A stretch of DNA of 64,000 nucleotides from Bacteroidetes bacterium OLB10 (GTDB lineage: Bacteria > Bacteroidota > Bacteroidia > AKYH767-A > OLB10), in the NCBI GenBank assembly GCA_001567275.1, contig LNBX01000033.1, forward strand, positions 1 through 64,000, read 5' to 3'. The position numbers were made by a program, and so were the translations under genes. The notes under the pieces are model-generated. The model worked only from the letters and a program-made list of their open reading frames with translations, was not told where the DNA came from and searched no databases. Positions within the stretch are counted from its first letter, which is position 1, and each line of letters begins with the position of its first letter. Below, piece after piece: positions 624 through 52,565 of this stretch.

Positions 624-1706
624 TTGACAGAAATAGATTTACAAGAGTTCCCAACAACAAGATACCAAGGAAGCAAGCGAAAAATTCTTCCTTGGCTTCA
701 CTCTGTTTTTAAAGATTTAGAATTTGAAACAGCACTTGATGCTTTTGGTGGCAGTGCTTCTGTAAGTTACTTGTTGAAGAAGATGAACAAGACAGTCACC
801 TTTAACGACAAACTTTTATTCAATCATATCATAGGCAAAGCAATAATTGAAAACAACCGAATAAAGCTTAACGAGCAGGATGTTTCCAATTTAACAAAGA
901 GAATTGAGGGAGTTAAATATTACCGATTTATTCAGAACAACTTTAAAGATGTTTATTACTTGCAGGACGAAAATGTTTGGCTTGATAGAGTAGTTTCAAA
1001 CATCTTTCAAATGAATCACTACCAACCCCATGTTCTACAATACAAAAGAAGTTTAGCTTATTACTCTTTATTCCAGTCAAGTATAATCAAACGACCATTC
1101 AATTTATTTCACCGCAAGAATCTTTACCTAAGAACCTCTGATGTTGAAAGAAATTTTGGAAATAAAACAACTTGGGACAAATCATTTGAAAATTATCTAA
1201 GAAAGTTTTCTGATGAAGTCAACTCACTTGTTTTTAACTCAGGTAGAAACTGCCGTTCACTTAATGAATCTGCATTTGACATTGCACCCGATGGCTACGA
1301 TTTAGTTTACCTTGACCCGCCATACTTACGAAAAGACGGCTCAAATGAATCATCAAATTATTTGAAGTGCTATCACTTCCTGGAAGGACTTTCAAAATAT
1401 CAGGAATGGAAAAATCTTGTTGACTTTGATAGTGTGAACTTGCGACTGAAACAAGACGAAGATTCAAACGACTTCTCAATGAATACAATTTATGAATCGT
1501 ATGAAAAATTGATTACTCGTTTCCAAAATAGTATCATTGTCTTATCCTATAAAAAAGGAGGAATTCCGTCAATTGATTATTTAGTTAACTTAGTAAAGAA
1601 AGTAAAAGGCAATGCACACACAGTAAGTATGCATTACAAGTATGCACTGAACCATCAAAACGGAGATGCAAAAAATAACAGGGAAGTCTTAATTATTGGG
1701 ATTTGA
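624..1706 (+). CDS. D12-class N6-adenine DNA methyltransferase (Dam-like)
   Basis: A 360-residue SAM-dependent adenine methyltransferase of the D12/Dam class. The order of motifs is that of the family: RYQGSK near residues 13-18 (start of the SAM-binding region), ALDAFGGSAS near 38-47 (motif I) and LDPPYL near 229-234 (catalytic DPPY). No ATG lies in frame near the 5' end; TTG at 624 is the best start because the RYxGSK motif follows within 13 residues, as is normal for the family, and a -7 promoter element lies just upstream. It is the first gene of a tight three-gene cassette, ending 4 bases before the GHKL ATPase gene. I infer it protects self DNA for a restriction-like system; the recognition sequence cannot be read from the protein. 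Confidence 0.85.
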   Translation: MTEIDLQEFPTTRYQGSKRKILPWLHSVFKDLEFETALDAFGGSASVSYLLKKMNKTVTFNDKLLFNHIIGKAIIENNRIKLNEQDVSNLTKRIEGVKYYRFIQNNFKDVYYLQDENVWLDRVVSNIFQMNHYQPHVLQYKRSLAYYSLFQSSIIKRPFNLFHRKNLYLRTSDVERNFGNKTTWDKSFENYLRKFSDEVNSLVFNSGRNCRSLNESAFDIAPDGYDLVYLDPPYLRKDGSNESSNYLKCYHFLEGLSKYQEWKNLVDFDSVNLRLKQDEDSNDFSMNTIYESYEKLITRFQNSIIVLSYKKGGIPSIDYLVNLVKKVKGNAHTVSMHYKYALNHQNGDAKNNREVLIIGI

Positions 1707-1710
1707 AATT

Positions 1711-3309
1711 ATGAGCACAGCAATAGGAAATTGGCCAAAGAAAATTACAGTCGACAAAAGAATCATTACAATTCTTAGTGGTTCTACCTACAACAATTTT
1801 CCGAAAGCCCTTAAAGAAATTATTTCAAACAGTTATGATGCCGATGCAAGTGAAGTAAAAATCACAGTTGATATAAAAGGCGAAACAATCACAGTTGAAG
1901 ATAATGGACTTGGAATGTCTGAAAGTGATTTTGATTTTTACTTGCGGATTGCTGGCAAAACTCGTTCAACAAGAGAGTTCACATTGTCAGGCAGAAAAAG
2001 GATTGGACAATTTGGTGTCGGTTTTCTTTCGGTGTTTCCTTTTTGCAGGACTTACAACATTGAATCAAAGAAGAAAGGTTCTCCTGAAATTATTTTCGCA
2101 GCAATACCAAATCACAAGTTTGTTGAAGAAGACCAAAAAGTTTTGACGGACATTGAAGAAATTCCGATTCAGGGAGGTAAGAAAATTGACAACAGCCAAT
2201 TGAATAAGCAATTCACAAAGATTAAATTGGTTGGATTCACCAGGTTAGCTAAGGATTTTTTCAAGCATGCTTACTTAGTTTCCCGAAGACGAGAAACAAT
2301 TCTGAATTACCCACCCCTACAACGATTAGAATGGGAATTATGTGAGGACTTACCTATTGAATTTGATTCACACAATGAGCTCTCAGAAAAGTTTGCTTAC
2401 AAATCCAATTTGCCTTTTCGTGTTTATCTTGATTCAAAAGATAAGCACTTGCTTAGAAATGTTCATGCAAATAATATTCTTGAAACTCACAAGGGAGAAT
2501 TTGAAACTATTGGAAAAATAAAATTCAAATTTTTTATTGCGACTGATTACAAGCCAGTCAAACCCGTTGAAGCCCGACATTTAAAAATGAGAAACTTTAA
2601 TGTAGGTGTTGGACCAAGAACAACATTTGGAGTTGGACTTGAAGGCAGAACCTATGCACGATTAGCACATTTAACAGGAGAAGTTCACTTTATTGACGGA
2701 ATGAATGATTTGATAAATGTAGCAAGAGACAACTTCAATTTCAGTCCTGACTATGAAGAATTGCAAGAGTATTTCAGAGGTAAATTACGCAAGTGGAGCG
2801 ATGAACTTGATAAGATTGACCAAGACGAAAAATTTATTTCGGCAGCCGAGGATAAGAAACATGTTAAAGATTTATCAGCACTGGTTAAATCAAATGTTAC
2901 GAAAAAAATCAGCGACCTTGAAAAAAGAGGATTTACGGTTTCAAAGGCAAAATCAAGTTCAGCAACTTCTACTCCGATAAAAATTGACAAAAAGAAAAAA
3001 GAGGTAATTGTTTCTGAGGACATTGAAAGTGAAGATGCAACAAAGACAATTGAGATTAACAGCAAAACTTTCAAACTCAAACTTGAGAATTGGGATACTG
3101 ATGATGATTACCCTGCTTGTAAGTTGAAAGGCAGAACTATTATTATCAACGAGGATTATCCATTATTCCGAAATAAAAAATTTCTTGATGTTTTTGTCAA
3201 ACTCCATTCTGTTTTGCTTTTGAATGTTGAGGACGGAGTAATAAGCAAAAAGGCATATCAATCATTGTTGAAGGACATTGATAAAACATTTATTGACTAC
3301 AAAAATTAA
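1711..3309 (+). CDS. GHKL (Hsp90/MORC-like) ATPase of a defence cassette
   Basis: A 532-residue protein with an N-terminal GHKL/HATPase_c_3 domain. The N box carries E36, N40 and D43/D45 in the series EIISNSYDADA, the G1 box is DNGLGM (64-69), and the G2 region GRKRIGQFGVGF is at 94-105. The C-terminal half is lysine-rich and I do not recognise it. I chose ATG 1711, 4 bases after the methyltransferase stop, over an in-frame TTG at 1696 that would overlap it. GHKL ATPases beside DNA methylases are a known association in restriction-modification contexts and are related to eukaryotic MORC proteins. Here it probably acts as an ATP-driven clamp or effector with the downstream AAA ATPase. No nuclease domain is visible. 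Confidence 0.8.
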   Translation: MSTAIGNWPKKITVDKRIITILSGSTYNNFPKALKEIISNSYDADASEVKITVDIKGETITVEDNGLGMSESDFDFYLRIAGKTRSTREFTLSGRKRIGQFGVGFLSVFPFCRTYNIESKKKGSPEIIFAAIPNHKFVEEDQKVLTDIEEIPIQGGKKIDNSQLNKQFTKIKLVGFTRLAKDFFKHAYLVSRRRETILNYPPLQRLEWELCEDLPIEFDSHNELSEKFAYKSNLPFRVYLDSKDKHLLRNVHANNILETHKGEFETIGKIKFKFFIATDYKPVKPVEARHLKMRNFNVGVGPRTTFGVGLEGRTYARLAHLTGEVHFIDGMNDLINVARDNFNFSPDYEELQEYFRGKLRKWSDELDKIDQDEKFISAAEDKKHVKDLSALVKSNVTKKISDLEKRGFTVSKAKSSSATSTPIKIDKKKKEVIVSEDIESEDATKTIEINSKTFKLKLENWDTDDDYPACKLKGRTIIINEDYPLFRNKKFLDVFVKLHSVLLLNVEDGVISKKAYQSLLKDIDKTFIDYKN

Positions 3310-3321
3310 ATCATACTGACT

Positions 3322-4551
3322 ATGCAGATAAATTATTTGAAAGTTGAGAACTTCAAGAGTTTGGTTAAAGTAGATGCAACAGGTTTTGGTTCGGTGAATT
3401 TTATTCATGGATTCAATAACAGTGGTAAATCAAACTTTCTAAAATTCCTTGAACTATTGTTCAGCCGTAAAACTGTTACAATACCAGAATCCTACACGGA
3501 TGAACTCAATATTTTAAGAACAAGAAATAAGGTAGCTGAAATCACTCCTTTTTGGCGTGGGTATATCTATGACATGCCTTTCATTTTTACAAACAATAAA
3601 AGGCAAACCAGTATTCTCTTTGAAGTTCAATTAGAGCTTAACAATAGCGAATATCCTCATTCAGAAGAACTTCTTGCCGCGGGATATCTTTATAATAACA
3701 GAGAAACTACTCCAATAAAAATTAAGGGGGAAATAGTTTCAATAAATCAGAATGACTCGCAGGTAATTTTGAAAGAAGTTAAGCTTCATGACATTACAAT
3801 TTTCTCAGACAACAACGGTGTTCCAAAATTCTTTGAAGCACCAGAAGGTTCTTCTCTTGCAAATAATGAAGGGCTTTTCAACGAAGTGATGGATGTGTTC
3901 AATAACTGTGTTTCGTTGATTGAGAGTGAGCGATATTTTAGCAAGGAAAAATTACAGCAAGACCCGCCTGATATTTTTGCTACTGGAAACTTTAAGAACT
4001 GGCTTTATGGCTTGAGTTTGGATGCTGACAGATTTGAAAAGTTCACCTCGCTGATTTCGTTCTTAGATAAATTTAATCTCACTTCAAAAGTTGCAAACGT
4101 CTTGAATGATAATCTCAAGAATTATCCTTTCATTAAAACTAAAATGACTTTTTCAAAATTCAAGGAAGAAATTGAAGTGATGCTTGAAAACCCAGTAGGA
4201 AGATTCCCTTTAAAGAATTTTGGAACAGGTGTTCAGCAACTGTTTTATATTCTATCAAGGATTTTTGATACTCCTTCAAAAATTATTTTGATTGAAGAAC
4301 TTGAATTGAACCTTTCACCCGAGTATCAGGAGTTGATAATAAATAACCTCCAGAAGTTCTTAGAAGAAAAAATACTTAGCCAAGTATTTTTCACAAGTCA
4401 TAGTGATTACTTAAACCGAAACGATTTTAAAGTTTACGAAGTGACCATTGATGCAAACGGGAAATCGGATATTAAGAGTTCAACCTACAATGGCTTGAAA
4501 GGTATGAGAAGAAACTTTTTAACATTTGCCGAAAAAGGAAAATTAGATTGA
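3322..4551 (+). CDS. AAA/ABC-type ATPase, OLD/RecF-like, third gene of the cassette
   Basis: A 409-residue SMC/RecF-type ATPase. It begins with the typical 'LKVENFKSL' strand and a Walker A GFNNSGKS (30-37). A signature-like FGTGVQQ segment lies near 300, Walker B with two acidic residues (ILIEELEL) near 321, and an H-loop FFTSHSDYL near 356. There is no TOPRIM domain after the ATPase, unlike full OLD nucleases. It starts 12 bases after the GHKL gene, so the three genes are very probably one transcript. I infer a sensor or motor role. Similar ATPases work in several anti-phage systems, but this exact partner set is not one I can name. Confidence 0.8.
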   Translation: MQINYLKVENFKSLVKVDATGFGSVNFIHGFNNSGKSNFLKFLELLFSRKTVTIPESYTDELNILRTRNKVAEITPFWRGYIYDMPFIFTNNKRQTSILFEVQLELNNSEYPHSEELLAAGYLYNNRETTPIKIKGEIVSINQNDSQVILKEVKLHDITIFSDNNGVPKFFEAPEGSSLANNEGLFNEVMDVFNNCVSLIESERYFSKEKLQQDPPDIFATGNFKNWLYGLSLDADRFEKFTSLISFLDKFNLTSKVANVLNDNLKNYPFIKTKMTFSKFKEEIEVMLENPVGRFPLKNFGTGVQQLFYILSRIFDTPSKIILIEELELNLSPEYQELIINNLQKFLEEKILSQVFFTSHSDYLNRNDFKVYEVTIDANGKSDIKSSTYNGLKGMRRNFLTFAEKGKLD

Positions 4552-4638
4552 ATCCTCTCACAAAAAATACTCTCTTAAAAACCGCTGCAAGCCAACGCTA
4601 CGAACCAAAGTTTTAAAGAGAATATTTTTTTCTCTAAC

Positions 4639-4690
4639 CAATGAAATCATTTAAAAATTCCTTCCCCCGCTCAAAAGAAAATTTAAAAAC
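4639..4690 (-). repeat. Inverted repeat copy B, right of the three-gene cassette
   Basis: Arms 4639-4659 and 4673-4690 are the reverse complement of the arms at 447-468 and 419-436. The core 4660-4672 has the same strand orientation as the other copy's core, so it is flipped relative to the arms. Together the copies frame the cassette at 624-4551. Confidence 0.7.
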
Positions 4691-4809
4691 CCCAACGCTC
4701 AGTGCAAACCCAACAAGACACATCATTTAATGTAAATCGCTTCGGACAAATTGTGCGCGGATTTGACACGACAAATCTTTGGACAGACAGCACGCCTTCC
4801 GGTAACACG

Positions 4810-4827
4810 GGTGGCAGTTGCGCCACC
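4810..4827. repeat. Short perfect inverted repeat (hairpin)
   Basis: GGTGGC and GCCACC are separated by six bases, giving a 6-bp GC-rich stem. No T-run follows on either side, so it is not a standard terminator. It may be part of a structured leader or repeat. Confidence 0.4.
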
Positions 4828-5104
4828 TCACACAAGAGGCGCAAAAAAAATTGCGTAGTGGTATGAATTAAGGTGCGCTATACGATTTGAAAAATATTAT
4901 TGGATTTATAATACTGTATAGGTAGCCTGAGCATCAAAATTGCTGAAGATTTGATTTACAAAATACACATTTTTGGGTCGGTTACAAGCAGATGCTTGCA
5001 ATAAGGTGTATTTTATTTTTCCGTTAATTTTAATTTTCAAATGAAAATTGTAGTATTGCGTGTGGTTGAGGGGGTGTGTTTGGGCAAAGCCAAAAGAGGT
5101 GTTT

Positions 5105-5137
5105 TTTGCAAACGCTTTATTGAAAACTGTATCTTAG
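5105..5137 (+). promoter_or_regulatory. Candidate promoter for the type I R-M operon
   Basis: A TTTG at 5105-5108 (-33 element) and TATCTTAG at 5130-5137 (one mismatch to the -7 consensus TANNTTTG) are 21 bases apart, close to the usual Bacteroidota spacing. The hsdR start follows 16 bases later. No other obvious promoter lies in the tightly coupled operon downstream. Confidence 0.45.
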
Positions 5138-5153
5138 AAACTTATTTTAACTA

Positions 5154-7925
5154 ATGCCAAATCAAAATCCAGAGCAAATCGCAAGAGATAATATAGACAA
5201 GCAGTTGACGGCTTGCGGTTGGATTATTCAGAATAAATCAACTTTAAATCTGAGTGCCGGAGTTGGAATTGCAGTGAGAGAATATTTAACCGATGTTGGA
5301 CCAGCTGACTATGTTTTGTTTGTTGACGGCAAACCTTGCGGCATTGTGGAAGCCAAGCGTGAAGAAGAAGGACACCGCCTGACAGTTCATGAAAACCAAA
5401 GTGAAGAATATGCAACGGCAAAACTCAAACACCTTGACAATGAACCTTTGCCCTTCGTGTATGAAAGCACAGGCGAAGTGACACGGTTCACAGATTTTCG
5501 TGACCCGAAACCCCGTTCACGAAATGTGTTTTCATTTCACAAGCCGGAAACATTTCGTGCATGGCTGAAACAAGAGGAATCTTTGCGGAGCAGTTTCAAA
5601 AATCTTCCACTCCTGCAAACAGAAGGTTTGCGTGATTGCCAGATAAACGCAATCACAAAACTTGAAAACTCTTTCAGGGAAATAAAACCAAAAGCCCTCA
5701 TTCAGATGGCGACAGGTTCAGGAAAAACTTTTACAGCAATCACTTCTATTTATCGTTTGCTTAAATACACCAAAGCAAAACGAATTTTGTTTTTGGTTGA
5801 CACCAAAAACCTTGGTGAGCAAGCCGAACAGGAATTCATGAATTTTTTGCCGAATGACAGCAACCAAAAATTTACTGAGTTGTATGGAGTGCACCGGCTG
5901 AAATCAAGTTTCATCCCCACGGACAACTTTGTTTACATCAGCACCATTCAGCGTTTGTATTCCATTCTGAAAGGAACAGAACTGGAAGAAAGTGCGGAAG
6001 AAGAAAATCCTAACGAAAGAAAATATCAGCCGAAAGAAATTCCACCTATTGAATATTCTGCAAAACTTCCGATTGAGTTTTTTGATTTTGTGGTGATAGA
6101 TGAATGCCACCGCAGCATTTACAATTTGTGGAAACAAGTGTTGGAATACTTTGATGCTTTTCAAATCGGTTTGACCGCAACACCCGACAACAGAACATTC
6201 GGCTACTTCAATCAAAACATCGTGAGTGAGTATTCACATGAGGATGCAGTTACGGATGGAGTGAATGTTGGCTTCAACACTTTTATCATTGCTACAAAAG
6301 TTACGCAACAAGGCGGAACAATCTGGAAAGGCGAATACATTGAACACAGGGAAAAACTTTCACGGAAGAAGCGTTGGGAATTGCAGGACGAAGATGAAGC
6401 ATATACAAATACACAACTGAACCGTGATGTGGTAAACCCAAATCAAATCCGGCTTGTTGTAAAATCCTTCAAAGAGCATTTGCCCGAAATGTTTCCTGAC
6501 CGCTACAATGACAACGGAGAATTTGAAACACCGAAAACTTTAATCTTCGCTTTGACAGATTCACATGCTGATGACATTATTCAGATTGTGCGGGAAGAAT
6601 TTGGCGAGGGGAATAATTTCTGCAAGAAAATTACTTACAAAGCAAACGAAGACCCAAAGAGTGTGTTGGCTCAGTTTCGCAACGACTACAATCCGAGAAT
6701 TGCAGTAACAGTTGACATGATTGCAACCGGAACAGATGTGAAATGTCTGGAGGTTCTCTTATTCATGCGTGATGTGCGGAGCAGAAATTATTTTGAGCAG
6801 ATGAAAGGTAGAGGAACAAGGGTGATTGATTTTGATGATTTGAAAAAGCGATCACCATCGGCAAAGTTTGCCAAAGACCATTTTGTAATTGTGGATGCAG
6901 TGGGAGTAAGCAAGAGTTTGAAAACCGACAGCAGATCATTGGAGAAAAGGCCGGGTGAACCATTGAAAGATTTGCTGGCAGCCATTGCAGTTGGAGCAAG
7001 AGACGAAGAATTGTTTTCATCCATTGCTAACCGATTAACACGATTGGAAAAACAAATCACAGAAAAAGAAAAGCAGCAGTTCACCGAAAAAGCACAAGGC
7101 AAAACAATCAATCAGGTTGTAAAAGAATTGCTGAATGCGTTTAATCCCGACACGGTTGATGAACTGAAAGCAAAAGTTGAAAGTGAACTGGCAGGTGAAT
7201 CGCCAATCAAAAAAGAAGAAGCATTCAAACAACTGCATGAGCAGTTGCAGAACAACGCTGCAAAAGTTTTCACAGGTGAGCTGAACGAATACATTGAGAA
7301 TGTGCGCAGAGCACACGAACAAAAAATTGACACCGTAAACCCCGATGAAATTATTCGCATTGGTTGGGACAAAGACAACGCAGCGAAAGCACAGGCATTG
7401 GTTGCTGATTTCAAAACATGGATTGAGCAACACAAAAATGAAATCACCGCTTTGCAGATTTTCTATGCACAAGCGTATCGCAGGCGTGAACTCACCTACA
7501 AAATGATTCAGGAAGTGATTGAAAAATTAAAGTTGGACAAGCCGACACTTGCACCTATGCAGGTGTGGCATGCGTATGAGCAATTGGAAAAGGTAACCGG
7601 CAAACCCCTGAGTGAATTGATTGCATTGGTTTCCTTAATCCGCAGGGTTTGCGGCATTGACAAAACGCTTACCAGCTATGATAATACAGTTGCTAAAAAT
7701 TTCCGTGACTGGATATTGAAAAAGAATGCCGGGAAGCATAACAGGTTCAATGAAGAACAAATGGCATTCATCAACATGATAAAGGAACAAATTGTAAATT
7801 CATTTCATTTTGAAGCAGATGATTTTGAGTTGATAGAGCAAGGCATGTTAGGCAGAGCATACAATGCTTTTGGTAATGAGTTGTATCAGTTAATTGATGA
7901 ATTAAACGAAGCATTGGCAGCATGA
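5154..7925 (+). CDS. hsdR: Type I restriction enzyme, R (motor/nuclease) subunit
   Basis: A 923-residue HsdR. The N-terminal PD-(D/E)XK nuclease is visible as GPADYVLF (49-56) and EAK (66-68). It is followed by a superfamily 2 translocase with Walker A ATGSGKT (186-192), DECH (316-319), TATP (341-344) and the motif VI region GRGTRV near 552. The long C-terminal part, after about residue 620, is predicted helical and normally docks to HsdM. With HsdM and HsdS it forms the ATP-dependent complex that translocates and cuts unmodified DNA. It is the first gene of an eight-gene operon. Its stop overlaps the next start by ATGA (7922-7925), so translation is coupled. Confidence 0.93.
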   Translation: MPNQNPEQIARDNIDKQLTACGWIIQNKSTLNLSAGVGIAVREYLTDVGPADYVLFVDGKPCGIVEAKREEEGHRLTVHENQSEEYATAKLKHLDNEPLPFVYESTGEVTRFTDFRDPKPRSRNVFSFHKPETFRAWLKQEESLRSSFKNLPLLQTEGLRDCQINAITKLENSFREIKPKALIQMATGSGKTFTAITSIYRLLKYTKAKRILFLVDTKNLGEQAEQEFMNFLPNDSNQKFTELYGVHRLKSSFIPTDNFVYISTIQRLYSILKGTELEESAEEENPNERKYQPKEIPPIEYSAKLPIEFFDFVVIDECHRSIYNLWKQVLEYFDAFQIGLTATPDNRTFGYFNQNIVSEYSHEDAVTDGVNVGFNTFIIATKVTQQGGTIWKGEYIEHREKLSRKKRWELQDEDEAYTNTQLNRDVVNPNQIRLVVKSFKEHLPEMFPDRYNDNGEFETPKTLIFALTDSHADDIIQIVREEFGEGNNFCKKITYKANEDPKSVLAQFRNDYNPRIAVTVDMIATGTDVKCLEVLLFMRDVRSRNYFEQMKGRGTRVIDFDDLKKRSPSAKFAKDHFVIVDAVGVSKSLKTDSRSLEKRPGEPLKDLLAAIAVGARDEELFSSIANRLTRLEKQITEKEKQQFTEKAQGKTINQVVKELLNAFNPDTVDELKAKVESELAGESPIKKEEAFKQLHEQLQNNAAKVFTGELNEYIENVRRAHEQKIDTVNPDEIIRIGWDKDNAAKAQALVADFKTWIEQHKNEITALQIFYAQAYRRRELTYKMIQEVIEKLKLDKPTLAPMQVWHAYEQLEKVTGKPLSELIALVSLIRRVCGIDKTLTSYDNTVAKNFRDWILKKNAGKHNRFNEEQMAFINMIKEQIVNSFHFEADDFELIEQGMLGRAYNAFGNELYQLIDELNEALAA

Positions 7926-8821
7926 GTTGGAACAAAAACAATATAGTAAACGAACCACCCGGAGATGATTGGGGAGGACCCTGGACTGAAAAAAAGTTAC
8001 AGGCGTTTTCAAAATATGTCTGGAGCTATCTCACCATCATGAAAAATTTTCCTTTTTGGGAAACCATTTACTTTGATGGCTTTGCAGGAAGCGGAACAAA
8101 AGAAAAAGAAGTAAACACTGAATTGTATAAACAGCTGAAAATAACAGAAGCGGAAGAGAAAACATATAAAGGTGCAGCCGAAAGAGTGCTGACTTTAAAA
8201 GATGATTTGACCTTCAATTATTATTATTTCATTGATAAGGAAGAAAAATCACTGAATAACCTAAAGGCAAAACTCAAAGACATCAAAGGAAAAAAGTTGG
8301 TGTTCCGTTCGGGCGACATGAATAAGCACATCAAAGATTTGGCGAAAGCCCTTCTTACAAAAGAAAAGAAATTGGCTGCTTTAATTTTCCTTGACCCATT
8401 CGGAATGCAGATTGACTGGACTTCTATTGAGGCATTGAAAGGCAGCCGTTCTGATGTTTGGATTTTAGTGCCTACCGGAGTAATCGTAAATCGTTTGTTG
8501 GACAGAGCCGGTAAACTGGAGCTCAGCGATAAGTTGGAATCGTTTTTCGGATTGCCGATTGATGAAATCAAAAAAATATTTTACAAACAGGAAAAGAAAA
8601 ATACTTTGTTCGGTGAAGAAGAAACCATCAGTAAAATTTCAAAACCCATTGAGCAGATTGCAAAGATTTACGCAAGCCGTATGAAAACAATATGGACGCA
8701 TGTAAGCGAAGAACCGTTGGTTTTGAAGAACCGGAACGGAGTTCCGATCTTTCATTTCGTGTTTGCATCCAATAATCAGACAGCGTTGAAGATTGCTAAA
8801 CAAATAATTCAAAACATTTAA
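7922..8821 (+). CDS. tcmP: TcmP family protein (three-Cys-motif partner)
   Basis: A 299-residue protein with the typical TcmP opening WGGPWTEKKL and a methyltransferase-like fold: DGFAGSGT at 52-59 resembles SAM motif I, and FLDPFGMQ near 160 resembles a catalytic loop. TcmP is named for its regular pairing with three-Cys-motif (Gp37/Gp68) proteins, and exactly that partner follows after 2 bases. Its biochemical activity is not established to my knowledge. It is embedded between hsdR and hsdS and overlaps hsdR by 4 bases, so it is made together with the restriction complex. A role in modifying or regulating the restriction response is inference. Confidence 0.85.
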   Translation: MSWNKNNIVNEPPGDDWGGPWTEKKLQAFSKYVWSYLTIMKNFPFWETIYFDGFAGSGTKEKEVNTELYKQLKITEAEEKTYKGAAERVLTLKDDLTFNYYYFIDKEEKSLNNLKAKLKDIKGKKLVFRSGDMNKHIKDLAKALLTKEKKLAALIFLDPFGMQIDWTSIEALKGSRSDVWILVPTGVIVNRLLDRAGKLELSDKLESFFGLPIDEIKKIFYKQEKKNTLFGEEETISKISKPIEQIAKIYASRMKTIWTHVSEEPLVLKNRNGVPIFHFVFASNNQTALKIAKQIIQNI

Positions 8822-8823
8822 TC

Positions 8824-9546
8824 ATGGCACAATCAAGTATTGAATGGACTGAAATGACCTGGAATCCCACAACGGGTTGCAATAAGATTTCGGCAGGTTG
8901 CAAATTCTGCTATGCAGAAGTAATGTCAAGGCGGTTGAAAGCAATGGGAGTTGAGAAATATAAAAATGGATTTGAGCTTGCCATTCACGAAAGCGAATTA
9001 CATACGCCTTACGAGTGGAAGAAACCGAAAATTGTATTTGTGAACTCCATGAGTGATTTGTTTCACAAAGATGTTCCGGTGAAATTTATTCAGAAAGTTT
9101 TTAAAGTGATGAAAGAAAATCCGCAGCATGTATTTCAAATTCTGACAAAGCGGGCTGATGTGCTTTTGTATTATGATAAAGAAGGTTGGTTGGAATGGAC
9201 ACATAATATTTGGATGGGAGTTTCGGTGGAAAGCGAAAAGGTGATGAAGCGAATTGACTTGTTGCGACAAACTAATGCACGGACAAAATTTTTGAGTTGC
9301 GAACCATTGATAAGTGAATTGCCAAACCTGAATCTGAAAAGTATTGACTGGGTAATTGTTGGAGGTGAAAGCGGAAGGACACCACGACCTATGAAAAAAG
9401 AATGGGTGATGGATATAAAAGCTCAATGCAAAAAAGCCAATGTTGCTTTCTTCTTTAAACAATGGGGAGGCACAAACAAAAAGAAAAAAGGAAATCTTTT
9501 AAATGGGAGAAAATATCTTGAGATGCCTGAAACAAATTTAGCATGA
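8824..9546 (+). CDS. Three-Cys-motif protein, DUF5131 (phage Gp37/Gp68 family)
   Basis: A 240-residue protein. It opens with the family hallmark IEWTEMTWNPTTGC and then a CX6CX2C cluster at C19, C26 and C29, which probably binds an iron-sulfur cluster or metal. The spacing differs from the CX3CX2C of classical radical-SAM enzymes, although the family is usually considered radical-SAM-like. A conserved VGGESG segment lies near 179-184. It follows its usual partner TcmP. The word 'phage' in the family name reflects where the family was first seen. Nothing else nearby is phage-like. Confidence 0.85.
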   Translation: MAQSSIEWTEMTWNPTTGCNKISAGCKFCYAEVMSRRLKAMGVEKYKNGFELAIHESELHTPYEWKKPKIVFVNSMSDLFHKDVPVKFIQKVFKVMKENPQHVFQILTKRADVLLYYDKEGWLEWTHNIWMGVSVESEKVMKRIDLLRQTNARTKFLSCEPLISELPNLNLKSIDWVIVGGESGRTPRPMKKEWVMDIKAQCKKANVAFFFKQWGGTNKKKKGNLLNGRKYLEMPETNLA

Positions 9547-9547
9547 G

Positions 9548-10601
9548 ATGAGAGGAGACTCAGAAATAGTTAAACAGTTGTTGATGAAAGCAAAAGACTC
9601 TGCGATGCTTGCGGTTGAATTTTATAATAAGCCTGCTGTAAAATTTAAGTCAGAAGGTTTTATTGCGATGATGATTATTGCATGGACTTCTCTCTATCAT
9701 GCTTACTACCTAAAGCAAAAGAAGAAACCGTATTTCAGAAAGAAGAACAGCGGAACAAAAAGACCGCACTTTGAAATCATCATTGAGAAACTCCCTGATG
9801 GAAGAATTATCAAGGAGAAAAAATGGTGGGATTTGCAAAAGTGCATTCAGGAATTTTACGGAAGTGATTCCGAAAATCCGGTTCGGGTAAATCTTGAATT
9901 TTTTATTCCATTGAGAAACATGATTGAGCACAGGTATTTACCAGAACTTGACATTCAAATATTCGGAGAATGTCAGTCGCTGCTTTTGAACTTTGACACT
10001 TTTCTTGAAAAGAACTTCGGCAGACCTCATTCGCTGAAAGCATTTTTATCTTTCAGTTTGCAGCTTGCGAACTCACCGCAAAACATCATTGAAGCAACGA
10101 AAAGAGAGTTAAAGAAAAAAGGCATAGCTAACATTGTTGAATACATCAAGAATTTTCGTTCCTCATTGACAACAGAAATTTTTGAAAGCCCTGAGTATTC
10201 TTTCAAAGCAGTTTTGATTCAGGTTAAGAATCATGAAAGCAAGGATGCACTGCCAATAAAATTTGTTCACTATGACAAACTCACAGAAGAACAAAAGCAG
10301 AATCTAAACGCTGCCGGAATTGTTTTGATAAAAGAAAAAGTTGTAAAAGTTACAGACACAGAATTTCTAGCGGATAAAATTTCTTATGATGAACTCACTG
10401 ATAAATTGAAAAAAACAATACCGGGCATCAAAATCAATCCTGAATTTCATTCCAAGAAAAGAGCTATAATTAAGAAGCGTCCTGAACTAATTCATCAAAG
10501 ACGACTTGACCCAAAAAAACCCAAAAAGTCAAAAGAAAGATTACTATTCGAAAGAAATTATTGTTGAATTTCAAAAAGCTTATGCTGCAGTTGAAGAATG
10601 A
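9548..10601 (+). CDS. DUF3644 protein with HEPN-like Rx4H motif (frameshifted near the 3' end)
   Basis: The uncorrected frame gives 339 residues ending at 10567. The family opening (KDSAMLAVEFYNKP, then EGFIAMMIIAWTSLYHA) and LEFFIPLRNMIEH are clear. R123 and H128 form an Rx4H motif like that of HEPN RNases. From 10542 the next frame reads YYSKEIIVEFQKAYAAVEE and stops at 10601, giving an ATGA overlap with hsdS. Deleting one A, most likely in the A7 run at 10513-10519, joins the two into 350 residues. The repaired overlap matches the coupling seen elsewhere in the operon. I treat the break as a probable sequence error. An RNase or abortive-infection role is inference. Confidence 0.8.
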
Positions 10602-11899
10602 TTGACCTTAACAACATACCACCCAATTGGACTACTGCTAAACTGGGAGAAGTGTGTGATAATATTTCTTTGAATGGAATAAAAATCAAACAAAAGCAAT
10701 ATCTGTCTTCAGGTAAATTTCCAGTTATTGACCAAGGACAGACATTGATAGGAGGTTATCATAACGAAGATAAATTTTTGGTAACTGGGGAGCCTCCTTT
10801 TATAGTTTTTGGAGACCATACAAAAGTGAAGAAGTATGTCAACTTTAAATTTATAGCTGGGGCAGATGGTATTAAAGTTCTTAAACCACATTCAGTATTC
10901 AACCCGAAGTTTTTTTATTATTTACTTTTTGCGGTAAAAATACCTGATAGGGGTTATGCAAGACACTTTCAGTTCTTAGTGAAAGAAGAAATCCCTCTTC
11001 CTCCCCTCCCCGAACAACACCGCATCGTTTCAAAACTCGAAGAGCTTTTTACCGAACTTGACAAAGGCATTGAGCAACTGCAAACCGCACAACAGCAACT
11101 AAAAGTTTACAGACAGGCAGTGTTGAAATGGGCGTTTGAAGCTGATACTCATAAAGAGTATTTGCTGAAAGATGTTTCAGTGAAAATTCAGATTGGACCA
11201 TTTGGAACTCAGCTACATAAAGAAGACTATATTGAATGTGGTATACCATTGATTAATCCGATGCATATTGAAAATGGTAAAATTGTTACAGATAACTCTT
11301 ACACCATTTCAAAAGAGAAAAGAGATAGTTTACCAAATTATATTTTGCAAGAGGGCGACATTCTTTTGGGTAGACGAGGGGAAATGGGAAGATGTGCTTT
11401 AATTGGAGATAAAGAGAACGGTTGGTTTTGTGGAACAGGTAGTTTATTTGTTAGACCCCAAAAAGAGATACTTAACTCAACTTATCTCTATTATTTCTTA
11501 AGTAGTGATATTACAAAAATATATCTTCAAGAAAATGCAGGCGGAACCACAATGGCAAATCTCAATTTGAAAATTGTGGGCAATGTCCCTATTCGCTTAC
11601 CAAATATTTTTGAGCAAATTCAGGTTGTTCACGAAATCGAATCCCGCCATTCAGTTTGCGATAAAATTGAAGAAACCATTGCCGACAGTTTGCAGCAAGC
11701 CGAAGCCCTGCGGCTGAGCATTTTGAAAAAAGCATTTGAAGGCAAACTGGTGCCGCAAGACCCCAATGATGAACCTGCACAAAAACTTTTGGAGAGAATA
11801 AGAGACCTTCGACAAGCTCAGGGCAAGCAAGGAAAGGCAAAGCCTGAGAAGAAGGAAAAAGTGAAAGCCCCTAAAAAGAAAGCGTTAGTGAATGGGTAA
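10598..11899 (+). CDS. hsdS: Type I restriction-modification specificity subunit
   Basis: A 433-residue HsdS with two target-recognition domains separated by conserved helical spacers. The first half (about 1-130) ends in PLPPLPEQHRIV and a helical segment to ~195. The second half ends in LPNIFEQIQVVHEIE and a matching helix with the typical LRLSILKKAFEGKLVPQDP. It sets the bipartite DNA target for both cutting and methylation. The C-terminal tail is lysine-rich and carries a short dispersed-repeat insertion (11807-11830). The start overlaps the frame-corrected DUF3644 gene by ATGA, and its end overlaps the DUF4062 gene by 8 bases. The target sequence cannot be inferred from the protein. Confidence 0.92.
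   Translation: MIDLNNIPPNWTTAKLGEVCDNISLNGIKIKQKQYLSSGKFPVIDQGQTLIGGYHNEDKFLVTGEPPFIVFGDHTKVKKYVNFKFIAGADGIKVLKPHSVFNPKFFYYLLFAVKIPDRGYARHFQFLVKEEIPLPPLPEQHRIVSKLEELFTELDKGIEQLQTAQQQLKVYRQAVLKWAFEADTHKEYLLKDVSVKIQIGPFGTQLHKEDYIECGIPLINPMHIENGKIVTDNSYTISKEKRDSLPNYILQEGDILLGRRGEMGRCALIGDKENGWFCGTGSLFVRPQKEILNSTYLYYFLSSDITKIYLQENAGGTTMANLNLKIVGNVPIRLPNIFEQIQVVHEIESRHSVCDKIEETIADSLQQAEALRLSILKKAFEGKLVPQDPNDEPAQKLLERIRDLRQAQGKQGKAKPEKKEKVKAPKKKALVNG
11807..11830. repeat. PELVEG-type dispersed repeat fragment inside hsdS
   Basis: The bases CTTCGACAAGCTCAGGGCAA begin here. On the minus strand this reads as a Pro-Glu-Leu-Val-Glu-Gly peptide, the mark of a widely scattered short bacterial repeat. It is in frame with hsdS and adds a short polar stretch to the C-terminal tail. 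Confidence 0.55.
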
Positions 11900-12521
11900 A
11901 ATAGTAGCCATACCAGTAAAGAAGAAAGCAGTTGCAAAAAAAGCAGTTGCCAAGAAGGCAGTTGTGTCCAAAAAGAAGCAACTCACAATTATGGTTTCTT
12001 CTACTGTTTATAACTCTGAATCCGATTTAGATCAGATAGCAGCAATTTTAGGGCAACAATTTGGATACAAAGTAATCATGTCTAAAGAAGGCAGTGTTTA
12101 TGTTTCAATGAAACACGTTAGCGATACTAAGGCTGCTTGTTTACAAGCTGTGAAGGATTGTGATTTATTTTTTGGAATTATTTTTCCAAGGTATGGCTCA
12201 GGTATTACTCATGCTGAATTTTTGAAAGCTAAAAGGCTTAATAAGCCCATGTGGTTTATTGCACATGAGAAGATAGAATTCTTGAGAAAACTTCTACAAC
12301 CAAAAATGTATACCAGAACAGGTAAACGGAAAAAATTTGAAATTCCTAAAACCGCTGTTTTGGATAGTGTGAAGGTTGTAGATATGTATAATGACGTTCG
12401 AAAATACTGGGTTCAGTCTTTTAAAAACATGGAAGAAGTGAAAAAATTTATTGAAACTCAATTCGGTGACATGAAGAAACGAATTCATGAGCTGGAAGAA
12501 CTTAAAAAGACAATCAAATGA
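11892..12521 (+). CDS. DUF4062 domain protein with Lys/Ala-rich N-terminal tail
   Basis: A 209-residue protein. Residues 1-29 are a basic low-complexity tail with repeated KKAVA units, resembling histone-H1-like tails. The DUF4062 core follows: the strand TIMVSSTVYNSE near 33-44, then CLQAVKDCDLFFGIIFPRYGSG and ITHAEFLKAKRLNKPMW. This layout resembles TIR-like or nucleoside-processing Rossmann folds, in which the acidic residue of the THAEF segment could be catalytic; that is inference from the fold. It overlaps hsdS by 8 bases and the AlbA_2 gene by ATGA. The tail may bind DNA or the restriction complex. Confidence 0.8.
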   Translation: MGKIVAIPVKKKAVAKKAVAKKAVVSKKKQLTIMVSSTVYNSESDLDQIAAILGQQFGYKVIMSKEGSVYVSMKHVSDTKAACLQAVKDCDLFFGIIFPRYGSGITHAEFLKAKRLNKPMWFIAHEKIEFLRKLLQPKMYTRTGKRKKFEIPKTAVLDSVKVVDMYNDVRKYWVQSFKNMEEVKKFIETQFGDMKKRIHELEELKKTIK

Positions 12522-14020
12522 AAGAAGAACAACTCATAAAAGACCTGATTAAGCAGGGAGAAAGCGAACAGCTTGAATTCAAAGAGTCTGTTCGGAAAGA
12601 AGATATTGCCAAAGTGCTTTGCAGTTTTCTTAACGGCAAAGGCGGGCGGGTTTTAGCCGGCATTTCGGAGAATGGCATACCTAAAGGAATTGCCAATGCC
12701 GAAAAGCATGTGGAGCAATTAAAGATGTTTTTACTTTCTGCAATAGTTCCCGAAGCACCCATTACAATTAGTATAGAACAGTTGGAAAAGAAGGATCTGA
12801 TTTTATTGAAAGTGTATGGTGGTTCCAAACAGCCCTATTTGTATAATGGAAGTATCTTCTATCGCAAAGGTGACCAAACCGTTAAGGCTACTTCACTTCA
12901 AATAGCCGAATTGATTCACGGTCGCCAAAAATCTGAAACCCATTGGGAAAGGCAACCTGCCCTGGGAGTTGACTTGGAAGATTTAGACCAAAAATTGATT
13001 CAATCTGTTATCAAAGAGTCAAGTGATAATCACAGGGGAAATTTTGAAGGGAAAAGGGTGATTGATTTTCTTTCGCATTATGGCTTATATCAAAATGGTT
13101 CCTTTACCAATGCCTGTGTGGTGCTGTTTGCAAAGAATCCGACAAAGTATTTACCACAAGTTCGGGTTCGCTTAACTGAATATGGGGAAGGAAAAACAGG
13201 CAATTCACTATTAAGAGATGAAGTATTTGAAGGCAATCTCTTTACTATTCAGGACAAACTGGAACGCTATATTGAAAATTTAGGTGTTAGAAGTGTGTTT
13301 GATAAGAACCAGTGGAAAAGAATAGATTTTAAGTTCCCTCCAAAAGCTTTGCAGGAAGGAGTTATCAATGCCTTAATGCACAGAGATTACAGCAGTCATT
13401 CAAGTAGTGTTGCAATAAGCATCTACCCTGATAGTTTTGTCATTTCTAATAGCGGTCATCTTCCTGATGATTTAAAGGTGAGTGAACTAAAGAAAAGCCA
13501 CCGTTCGCATCCGGTTAATCCTGACATTGCACATATTGTTTTTCTAAAAGGACTAATTGATAAACTTGGTAGGGGAACTATTCGGGTTGTAGAACTTTGT
13601 AGGGCAGAAGGACTAAAAGACCCTGTTTGGAAAGATACTATTGATGGGGTTACACTTACATTTAACGGTCCTAAAGCATTAGCTGCTAAAAAAGATACTG
13701 CTAAAAGTGATGGTGTAAATGATGGTGTAAATGATGGTGTAAGTGATGGTGTAAATAGATTGTTAGATGATGGTGTAAATGATGGTCTAATTGAGGGTGT
13801 AAGTGATGGTGTAAGAGTAGAGATAATCAAGATAGTTGAACTGATAATAGCTAGAGAAGGTGCAAATGCTCTCGATATAGCTACTAAAAGGGGTAAATCT
13901 AAGCCTACCATTGAAAGATACCTCAGAACAGCCAAAGAAGTAGGAATAATAGAGTTTAAAGGAGCACCAAAAACGGGGGGATATTATTTAACAACGAAAA
14001 TGAAGAAGCAATTAAAATGA
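12518..14020 (+). CDS. AlbA_2/Schlafen-domain ATPase with winged helix
   Basis: A 500-residue protein of the class often annotated as 'ATP-binding protein' or 'RecG-like'. The N-terminal AlbA_2 (Schlafen-type) domain shows QLEFKESV (18-25) and FLNGKGGRVLAGISENG near 37-53. A GHKL-type HATPase_c_4 domain follows, with its N box near EGVINALMHRDYS. After a variable linker of DGVN/DGVS repeats (13707-13817), a C-terminal winged helix ends in GGYYLTTKM. Such proteins commonly sit inside type I R-M loci; their role is unsettled, with regulation or nucleic-acid cleavage proposed. It overlaps both neighbours by ATGA, so it is fully coupled to hsdM. Confidence 0.85.
   Translation: MKEEQLIKDLIKQGESEQLEFKESVRKEDIAKVLCSFLNGKGGRVLAGISENGIPKGIANAEKHVEQLKMFLLSAIVPEAPITISIEQLEKKDLILLKVYGGSKQPYLYNGSIFYRKGDQTVKATSLQIAELIHGRQKSETHWERQPALGVDLEDLDQKLIQSVIKESSDNHRGNFEGKRVIDFLSHYGLYQNGSFTNACVVLFAKNPTKYLPQVRVRLTEYGEGKTGNSLLRDEVFEGNLFTIQDKLERYIENLGVRSVFDKNQWKRIDFKFPPKALQEGVINALMHRDYSSHSSSVAISIYPDSFVISNSGHLPDDLKVSELKKSHRSHPVNPDIAHIVFLKGLIDKLGRGTIRVVELCRAEGLKDPVWKDTIDGVTLTFNGPKALAAKKDTAKSDGVNDGVNDGVSDGVNRLLDDGVNDGLIEGVSDGVRVEIIKIVELIIAREGANALDIATKRGKSKPTIERYLRTAKEVGIIEFKGAPKTGGYYLTTKMKKQLK
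13707..13817 (+). repeat. 12-bp tandem repeat in the AlbA_2 gene linker
   Basis: About eight degenerate copies of GATGGTGTAAAT encode DGVN/DGVS. One interruption encodes NRLLD. The unit is a multiple of three, so gain or loss of copies changes linker length without breaking the frame. Confidence 0.8.
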
Positions 14021-15507
14021 GTAATGAAAATACATCAGGCATAATCAGTAAAGTTTGGAGTTTCTGCAACACCCTTCGTGATGATGGAGTGGGTTACGGA
14101 GATTATCTGGAACAACTCACTTACCTGCTGTTTCTGAAAATGGCAGACGAGTTTTCAAAGCCGCCATACAACCGCAAACTTCCAATCCCGAAACAATTCA
14201 ACTGGGAAAGTTTAACTAAGGAGAAAGGCGAAGATTTGGAAACGCATTATTCCAACCTGCTTCGTGAGTTGGCAAAAGCGAAAGGAATCTTAGGACAGAT
14301 TTTTACCAAGAGCCAAAACAAAATTCAAGACCCTGCAAAACTTTACAAGCTCATACGCATGATTGATGATGAGCAGTGGAGCACAATGGGTGCCGATGTG
14401 AAAGGACAGATTTATGAGGGGCTGTTGGAGAAGAACGCAGAGGACACAAAAAGCGGAGCCGGTCAATACTTCACACCCCGTGCTTTGATTCGTGCTATGG
14501 TGGAATGTATGCAACCGCAACCTATGAAAACTATTGCTGACCCCGCTTGCGGCACAGGAGGATTTTTTCTTGCTGCTTACGATTACCTCGCAAAACAAAA
14601 TTTGGATAAAGAGCAAAAAAAGTTTCTGAAATTCAAAACATTTTTCGGAAATGAAATTGTGCCGTCAACAAGGCGAATGGCTTTGATGAATTTATTTCTG
14701 CACAACATCGGTGATATTGATTCGGAAAATTTTATTTCCCCAACAGATGCTTTGATTGCCGATTCAGGTTTGAGAGCCGACTATGTTTTGGCAAATCCGC
14801 CATTCGGCAGAAAAAGCAGCATGACTTCAACCAACGATGAAGGCGAACAGGAAACAGAAGATTTGACTTACAACCGTCAGGACTTTTGGGAAAGCACCAG
14901 CAACAAGCAGTTGAATTTTGTGCAGCATATACGCTGCATGTTGAATACTACAGGAAAAGCGGCTGTGGTAGTGCCCGACAATGTTTTGTTTGAAGGTGGA
15001 GCAGGTGAAACGATTCGTAAAAAATTGATGGAGACAACCGACCTGCACACGATACTTCGTTTGCCGACAGGAATATTTTACAAGCAGGGAGTAAAAGCCA
15101 ATGTGTTTTTCTTTGACAACAAACGGGCAGCAAAAGAACCCTGGACGAAAGAAATTTGGTTTTACGATTTCAGAACGAACATTCACTTTACGCTGAAAAA
15201 AAATCCGTTGAAGTTGGATGACCTGAAAGATTTTATTTCTTGTTACAACCCAAACAACCGGCACAAGCGGAAAGAAACTTACAATGCTGAATCAAACAGC
15301 GAAGGCAGATGGCGAAAATTTTCTTACGAAGAAATTATTGCAAGAGATAAAACTTCACTTGACATCACTTGGATAAAAGACAAATCACTTGCAGACCTTG
15401 ACAATCTCCCTGACCCTGATGTGTTGGCAGGAGAAATAATTGAAAACCTGGAAGCAGGTTTGGAAAGTTTCAGAGAAATAATGATTACGATAAATGGAAA
15501 AGAATAA
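14017..15507 (+). CDS. hsdM: Type I restriction-modification methyltransferase subunit
   Basis: A 496-residue HsdM. The N-terminal helical HsdM_N domain (VWSFCNTLRDDGVGYGDYLEQ) is followed by the gamma-class N6-adenine methyltransferase core. This shows GAGQYFTPR, the SAM motif DPACGTGGFF near 178, and the catalytic NPPFG near 260. With HsdS it forms the M2S modification enzyme and the core of the restriction complex. It is the last gene of the operon, an unusual order since hsdM normally lies beside hsdS. Here the DUF4062 and AlbA_2 genes separate the two. Its length is normal and the reading frame is intact. Confidence 0.93.
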   Translation: MSNENTSGIISKVWSFCNTLRDDGVGYGDYLEQLTYLLFLKMADEFSKPPYNRKLPIPKQFNWESLTKEKGEDLETHYSNLLRELAKAKGILGQIFTKSQNKIQDPAKLYKLIRMIDDEQWSTMGADVKGQIYEGLLEKNAEDTKSGAGQYFTPRALIRAMVECMQPQPMKTIADPACGTGGFFLAAYDYLAKQNLDKEQKKFLKFKTFFGNEIVPSTRRMALMNLFLHNIGDIDSENFISPTDALIADSGLRADYVLANPPFGRKSSMTSTNDEGEQETEDLTYNRQDFWESTSNKQLNFVQHIRCMLNTTGKAAVVVPDNVLFEGGAGETIRKKLMETTDLHTILRLPTGIFYKQGVKANVFFFDNKRAAKEPWTKEIWFYDFRTNIHFTLKKNPLKLDDLKDFISCYNPNNRHKRKETYNAESNSEGRWRKFSYEEIIARDKTSLDITWIKDKSLADLDNLPDPDVLAGEIIENLEAGLESFREIMITINGKE

Positions 15508-51670: not shown

Positions 51671-51701
51671 CTTGTTTTTGAAAAAATTATTTCTATTTTT
51701 G
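51671..51701 (+). promoter_or_regulatory. Promoter of the Cas6-like gene
   Basis: CTTG (51671-51674) and TATTTTTG (51694-51701) are 19 bases apart, matching the Bacteroidota -33/-7 arrangement. The start codon follows 70 bases later. Confidence 0.5.
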
Positions 51702-51771: not shown

Positions 51772-52506
51772 ATGCGCGTTAAAATTTCATTCACCAGGGA
51801 CAATAATTCCGGGAATACCATACCGCTACACCATCAGAAGTTGATTTTCGACAGCCTTTCATCAATTGCACGTGTGATTGGTGAAGACCGCAAGCAACTA
51901 AATTTTTCATCTCTCAAAGGAACCTCCAAAATACACAATGGGTTTATGAAGTTTCTGTCCTCGAAGATTACCCTCGTAGTTTCGAGCAGTAATGAGGATC
52001 TGATAAACAAACTTACGAATCATATTTTTGCTGAAGGGCGACTCACCATTGGCCGTATGAACTTAGTTCCAAAAGGCAAAGAAATAATTACCGATCCAGA
52101 GTTCAATACACAGATGCGTTACTTATGTATTTCACCTTTGGTATTATTTAGTCCGCAAAAAGACAGCAAACAGCCGGTGGAGTCCATTGATCCGCAAAGT
52201 CCGAATTTTTCTGACATCCTTTATAATCTTACTCTCGATTCAATGGAAAAATCAGGAATTTCTGAAAGCGTTATTTCTTCTTATTCAGAATTTGACATTC
52301 AGGCTGACACCGAATATTTGCAAAAAATGTCAGGGCAAAACAAGAAATACATTCGTATGTATCGCACTTCAGAAGGCAAAAATGTTGCAGGATACTTATT
52401 ACCATTTACGCTGCACGCCCATCCTGATGTACATAAGTTTGTTTGGCAAAATGGAATGGGTGCCTTAACTTATGAGGGGTATGGCATGCTTGACCTTGTA
52501 AAATAA
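51772..52506 (+). CDS. cas6: Stand-alone Cas6-like endoribonuclease
   Basis: 244 residues with the Cas6 RAMP layout. The N-terminal strand MRVKISFT is followed by IPLHHQKLIFDSL, where H20/H21 sit at the usual catalytic-histidine position. Then come FSSLKG, a middle MRYLCISPLVLF and the C-terminal glycine-rich loop NGMGALTYEGYGMLDLV that marks the family. Cas6 normally cuts CRISPR precursor RNA at repeats, but there is no array or other cas gene anywhere in this window. It has its own promoter and terminator. It may serve an array elsewhere or process other RNA. Confidence 0.82.
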   Translation: MRVKISFTRDNNSGNTIPLHHQKLIFDSLSSIARVIGEDRKQLNFSSLKGTSKIHNGFMKFLSSKITLVVSSSNEDLINKLTNHIFAEGRLTIGRMNLVPKGKEIITDPEFNTQMRYLCISPLVLFSPQKDSKQPVESIDPQSPNFSDILYNLTLDSMEKSGISESVISSYSEFDIQADTEYLQKMSGQNKKYIRMYRTSEGKNVAGYLLPFTLHAHPDVHKFVWQNGMGALTYEGYGMLDLVK

Positions 52507-52534: not shown

Positions 52535-52565
52535 AAAATCAGGAAATTTAACCACCTGATTTTTT
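52535..52565 (+). terminator. Intrinsic terminator after the Cas6-like gene
   Basis: AAAATCAGG and CCTGATTTT form a 9-bp stem with an 11-base loop and a short T-run. It ends directly at the next start codon. Confidence 0.65.

Follow-up and report, generated by a model that had tools for sequence, protein, structure and literature searches.

Cas6 proteins have been described in several variants that differ in how, and whether, they cut RNA. PfuCas6 relies on Tyr31, His46 and Lys52 (PMC3652601; PMC3727216). In Cas6e and Cas6f, the catalytic histidine is located in helix 1, and the CRISPR-linked, dimeric enzyme from S. solfataricus (Sso1437) cleaves RNA despite having no canonical histidine, by means of basic residues that differ from those discussed below (PMC3652601). 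Two further archaeal proteins, PhCas6nc (3qjj) and its Pfu counterpart (3ufc), come from organisms with CRISPR and are devoid of canonical catalytic activity.

Here, we analyzed a window of 64 kb of DNA from Bacteroidetes bacterium OLB10 (contig LNBX01000033.1), for which a first-pass annotation had reported an orphan Cas6-like gene. Such a gene is indeed present and stands alone: the open reading frame at 51772–52506 (plus strand) is intact, its bounds are exact and its product comprises 244 amino acids. This protein, referred to in the following as solo Cas6, is recognized by the Pfam model Cas_Cas6_C (PF01881; 54.4 bits at a cut-off of 23) and by PADLOC Cas6b (E 1.1e-24) and scores marginally under the cut-off of the NCBIfam cas6 model (TIGR01877; 58.6 bits, cut-off 58.65), with PF01881 and TIGR01877 both matching all 32 aligned family members. 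An AlphaFold model built from 26 orthologues (mean pLDDT 91.8) shows two RAMP/ferredoxin-like domains and aligns along its full length with archaeal Cas6 structures at Z scores of 24.6–26, the highest values extending over 222–225 residues. Since the profile matches are accompanied by a fold match over the whole length, the protein belongs to the Cas6 family. Family models, fold and orthologues rule out a chance or mis-called reading frame, and a viral origin is rejected as well, as no orthologue or other relative was found in the phages and IMG/VR viral contigs searched. PF10040 gave no match in the genome from which the window is derived, showing that a single Pfam model can overlook this family.

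The closest solved structures are 5yi6 (Z 26.0, rmsd 2.4 over 222 residues) and the two Cas6nc proteins, 3qjj (Z 26.0, rmsd 2.3 over 225 residues) and 3ufc (Z 25.8, rmsd 2.3 over 225 residues), and PfuCas6 (3i4h/3pkm) is nearly as close (3i4h: Z 24.6, rmsd 2.2 over 214 residues). With PfuCas6 and 5yi6, solo Cas6 shares the full-length two-RAMP fold, the glycine-rich loop and a place outside a fixed effector complex, but its sequence identity to these proteins amounts to just 14–20% and it has no CRISPR system at its side. The resemblance to the Cas6nc proteins goes further in that solo Cas6, judged from its sequence, likewise lacks the canonical catalytic residues; unlike them, it is a bacterial core gene product, many of its hosts are without CRISPR, and it has an invariant histidine of its own, His21. 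Cas6e is structurally farther away (Z about 9). His21 is situated at the start of the very helix that carries the catalytic histidine in Cas6e and Cas6f, but the equivalence of these histidines is unproven, as a profile alignment with E. coli Cas6e covered the C-terminus alone and did not reach the N-terminal region containing His21.

To compare individual residues, 20 orthologues were aligned with 11 CRISPR-type Cas6 proteins from the same phylum. A catalytic-type histidine at the canonical position and the tyrosine in helix 1 are present in all 11 CRISPR-type proteins and in none of the 20 orthologues, and these columns were equated with PfuCas6 His46 and Tyr31 by motif position and not by a residue-level structural alignment. 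The histidine is missing because the loop that carries it is deleted between helix 1 and the NFSSLKG strand (51886–51924, plus strand), which itself holds the invariant residues S46 and K49. In its place, the orthologues have conserved a different set of residues: H21, K49, R195 and Y197 are invariant (20/20), and S46, D148, F174, D179, Y182, K191 and P211 are also common to them. At the position of H21 (codons of H20-H21-Q22 at 51829–51837, plus strand), 10 of the 11 CRISPR-type proteins have a tyrosine. The first-pass annotation had stated that the N-terminal histidine of Cas6 is kept. The conserved histidine lies at a different place and is therefore not the canonical residue, which has gone together with its loop. 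The same annotation was right about the C-terminal glycine-rich RAMP loop (G228-x-G230 ... G236-x-G238, codons at 52453–52494, plus strand): G228, G230, G236 and G238 are kept in 20/20 orthologues, and the loop is common to orthologues and CRISPR-type Cas6. A crRNA-processing Cas6 is recognized by a canonical histidine of the PfuCas6 His46 type together with the tyrosine, and neither is found in solo Cas6; it presents the Cas6 fold without the canonical catalytic histidine, as is typical of Cas6nc. With the canonical catalytic residues gone, solo Cas6 is at most a putative endoribonuclease. As H21 directly precedes helix 1 of the model (residues 22–36), a relocated active site around H21 is conceivable.

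Solo Cas6 is not a sporadic gene. All 34 genomes of at least 90% completeness in the order to which the window's genome belongs carry exactly one copy, and when fragmentary genomes are included, it is found in 41 of 42, the exception being a single genome with a completeness of 58%. A scan of the class (296 genomes) retrieved orthologues from this order and from two further families, termed f19 and f42 here, at 170 bits or more, with the next match at 38 bits, and the gap persisted in a scan of the phylum (392 genomes; at least 328 versus at most 87 bits). Family f19 is probably identical to the Cyclobacteriaceae, because Flammeovirgaceae/Cyclobacteriaceae MAGs (L070, L071) match it in sequence type and gene order. 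Here, 103 of the 118 genomes contain the gene at 190–242 bits, clearly separated from other Cas6-like matches in the same genomes (20–46 bits). The remaining 15 lack it (G330, G335, G354, G357, G362, G367, G376, G377, G379, G384, G398, G413, G415, G418 and G431), and solo Cas6 is therefore dispensable in some lineages; as several of these genomes are paired by genus, the losses were probably few and clade-specific. In a phylogenetic tree, the orthologues group in one clade (99/99) that excludes 14 other Cas6 sequences; the order, f19 and f42 each form a clade of their own, as expected for vertical descent. The gene is under strong purifying selection, with dN/dS values of 0.006–0.051 across the nine pairs for which dS could be used, another four being saturated, and there is no frameshift or stop in any of the listed orthologues. 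In the named collection, the matches from the order all stem from uncultured assemblies, nearly all of them labelled as MAGs. The sole extrachromosomal copy, annotated as 'CRISPR-associated endoribonuclease Cas6', is located on a 600-kb replicon of Bernardetia sp. Wsw4-3y2 (L141, NZ_CP147018.1:328852-329664). This second replicon also carries purQ and rimM and may therefore be a chromid.

The genetic environment of solo Cas6 provided further information. The gene is preceded directly by ychF in 18 of 18 f19 loci examined, in both f42 loci and, within the window's order, in several families; in f19, ychF itself usually follows genes for an AI-2E-type transporter and a DUF3276 protein. This shared position suggests a common ancestry of the locus. 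YchF is a translation-associated ATPase; a functional link between the two proteins is speculation. In the window's own family, the gene has been relocated behind rhomboid and Exo_endo_phos genes. Because the neighborhood varies between families, there is no fixed functional partner outside f19. In the window, the upstream neighbor encodes an Exo_endo_phos protein (PF03372; 50579–51658, plus strand), a conserved neighbor in the window's family only, and the downstream neighbor encodes a protein with a transglycosylase domain (PF00912; 52566–54494, plus strand). The latter belongs to a cluster (C2) present in 25 of the compared loci, mostly directly 3' of the Cas6 gene; its product has an AsmA-like N-terminal part, and it pairs with solo Cas6 across families of the order. 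Two rhomboids, the Exo_endo_phos protein, the transglycosylase, GPx, RNA polymerase alpha and ribosomal proteins make up the neighbors in the window, in line with the housekeeping-type surroundings described initially. In a different part of the window (624–15507), a run of plus-strand genes resembles a restriction-modification or defense island, with methyltransferase-like, type I R/S/M-like and ATP-binding products as judged by their first residues only.

It had also been claimed that solo Cas6 has its own promoter and terminator. A generic sigma-70 and terminator scan revealed neither above chance, and these assignments therefore rest on a Bacteroidota motif, on conservation and on folding. 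A TAnnTTTG sequence corresponding to the consensus of the Bacteroidota -7 box (TATTTTTG; 51694–51701, plus strand) lies 71 nt before the start codon as a putative promoter element. It occurs in the same position in three relatives from the genus (TATTTTTG, TAAATTTG and TACTTTTG) and is also found in several f19 genomes. Downstream of the gene, a hairpin followed by a T-run (52535–52563, plus strand; nine pairs, -8.2 kcal/mol, z -2.6) is a probable intrinsic terminator and the sole hairpin of its sort within the window. Several relatives have a hairpin of unrelated sequence, again followed by a T-run, at the same site. We considered this hairpin as a substrate of solo Cas6 and rejected the idea: its sequence varies freely while hairpin and T-run remain, which makes a terminator more likely, and there is just one such structure in the window. 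Autoregulation via a shared 5' hairpin was also discarded, as the upstream regions are AT-rich and have no common structure by eye. Rfam gave no match in the window and, beside the gene in relatives, only one tRNA at one locus. On the whole, an independent transcription unit is plausible for this gene but unproven.

A very divergent solo Cas6 was encountered in another family of the Bacteroidia, f51 (L127:6880-7584, minus strand; L128:973-1680, plus strand). These proteins of about 235 amino acids match PF01881 with 82 bits and have no canonical histidine. Their genes adjoin housekeeping genes and a large gene (with a SpoIIE domain in the case of L127), and ychF is 4 kb away in L128. They may represent the same phenomenon, either as an independent branch or as one that has diverged far.

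The first-pass annotation had also considered that solo Cas6 might serve a distant array. If it acted in trans on pre-crRNA from a distant or cryptic array of a type I or III system, traces of such a system should be sought in the host genome. Two observations speak in favor of this explanation beyond the fold itself: stand-alone archaeal Cas6 proteins can serve several complexes (PMC3652601), and about 44% of the f19 genomes carrying solo Cas6 also have Cas1. However, a scan of the window found no CRISPR array, as had been reported, and searches of the window's genome for Cas1, DevR-type Cas7 and Csm1 found none of these three genes. Arrays were additionally sought with a pattern that required the usual Cas6-type handle, TTGAAAS, three times at the spacing of CRISPR repeats. 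In the window's genome, a MAG with a completeness of 96%, the single match was read as rpoC coding sequence. The pattern retrieved arrays in the positive controls G435, G386 and G360 as well as in the sister genome G003 and missed other controls, so that this is a partial test. With these three gene searches and the handle pattern, neither a CRISPR array nor effector genes were thus found in the host genome. The sister species G003, a member of the window's genus, has a long CRISPR array with a repeat of about 46 nt near Cas1 (L131, G003:C39:1-3600), although it shares its solo Cas6 with the Cas1-free genome studied here. Across the order, 7 of 33 clean genomes contain Cas1. Of the nine Cas1 matches, eight have about 99–116 bits and reside in open frames of about 300 amino acids, which suggests type II systems. 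Such systems do not use Cas6. All twelve Csm1 matches in the order are weak and below the cut-off; eleven cover the N-terminus of the profile only and, judging by protein length, are probably HD domains of RNase Y. In f19, 49 of 118 genomes have Cas1: solo Cas6 and Cas1 occur together in 45 genomes, the core Cas6 alone in 58, Cas1 alone in four and neither in 11 (Fisher p 0.27), so the presence of solo Cas6 is independent of Cas1. Furthermore, nine f19 genomes contain a second, low-scoring Cas6 of about 260–290 amino acids, which is a true CRISPR Cas6 and in seven cases is encoded within about 11 kb of Cas1. The type I/III systems therefore bring their own, different enzyme, and service to a distant array appears very improbable for solo Cas6. 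Even harder to reconcile with the data is a leftover CRISPR gene drifting toward loss after deletion of the rest of its locus. The lack of cas genes nearby and the disappearance of the canonical catalytic residues would fit, but the low dN/dS values, the intact reading frames, the retention in 34 of 34 genomes of the order and the inheritance of one orthologous clade along with the host lineages leave next to no room for it.

A single conserved copy, kept with or without CRISPR, combined with the loss of the cutting residues indicates that the protein has probably been recruited for an ordinary cellular RNA job. We therefore favor, with a probability of roughly 0.7, a domesticated Cas6, that is, an RNA-binding two-RAMP protein outside CRISPR that would act on host RNA. 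The original suggestion of a conserved solo Cas6 for non-CRISPR RNA fits well with its occurrence as a single copy throughout the order and in most of f19, the fixed housekeeping neighborhoods, the strong purifying selection and the independence from Cas1. The comparison with relatives lacking Cas1 points in the same direction, with conserved contexts and one copy in mostly Cas1-less genomes. Against this reading stand the absence of the gene from 15 f19 genomes, the changing neighborhood outside f19 and the fact that neither Rfam nor inspection of the upstream regions brought up a candidate substrate. The protein would have left CRISPR immunity, or would never have been part of it, before the sampled lineages diverged, two alternatives that the unrooted comparison does not distinguish, and would then have been passed on vertically as a single-copy core gene. 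From the retained fold and glycine-rich loop we infer that solo Cas6 binds RNA; the groove between the RAMP domains and the loop would recognize a small number of RNAs encoded on the chromosome, perhaps just one.

Whether the domesticated protein also cleaves the bound RNA is an evenly balanced matter. If so, H21, aided by K49, K191, R195 and Y197, would substitute for the lost catalytic site, and the cut is predicted to be metal-independent and to leave a 2',3'-cyclic phosphate. The ancestral site beside ychF hints weakly at a translation-linked RNA. We put forward, as a tentative proposal, a Cas6-derived housekeeping enzyme with a relocated site (H21, K49, R195, Y197) that in at least two lineages of the Bacteroidota would serve in the maturation or degradation of one particular chromosomal RNA, which may be linked to translation. 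A non-cleaving RNA chaperone or regulator that has kept the Cas6 groove, as in PhCas6nc and PfuCas6nc, is a sub-case of the domesticated Cas6 rather than its competitor and deserves a similarly cautious hearing. It would explain the loss of the canonical tyrosine and histidine in all 20 orthologues, and non-catalytic archaeal proteins account for two of the three solved structures that come closest. On the other hand, the catalytic PfuCas6 is almost as close (Z 24.6 versus 26.0), the newly invariant H21, K49, K191, R195 and Y197 resemble a polar site that has been maintained, and cleavage by SsoCas6 does not require the histidine (PMC3652601).

While the Cas6 family is well known, we found no description of a family like this one in the open-access literature searched on solo, orphan or core Cas6 or on Cas6 together with YchF, and an order-wide, CRISPR-independent core branch with different invariant residues was not found there. 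Should our interpretation be correct, an entire orthologous family, present in most members of two bacterial lineages, would carry the database name 'CRISPR-associated endoribonuclease Cas6' though unrelated to CRISPR, and the numbers of orphan cas genes in surveys would be inflated by it. Solo Cas6 would then clearly exemplify how an RNA-binding protein of CRISPR turns into a core cellular gene, or it would even be an older, pre-CRISPR form, and the range of RNAs that a Cas6 can process would become directly testable in cultured bacteria.
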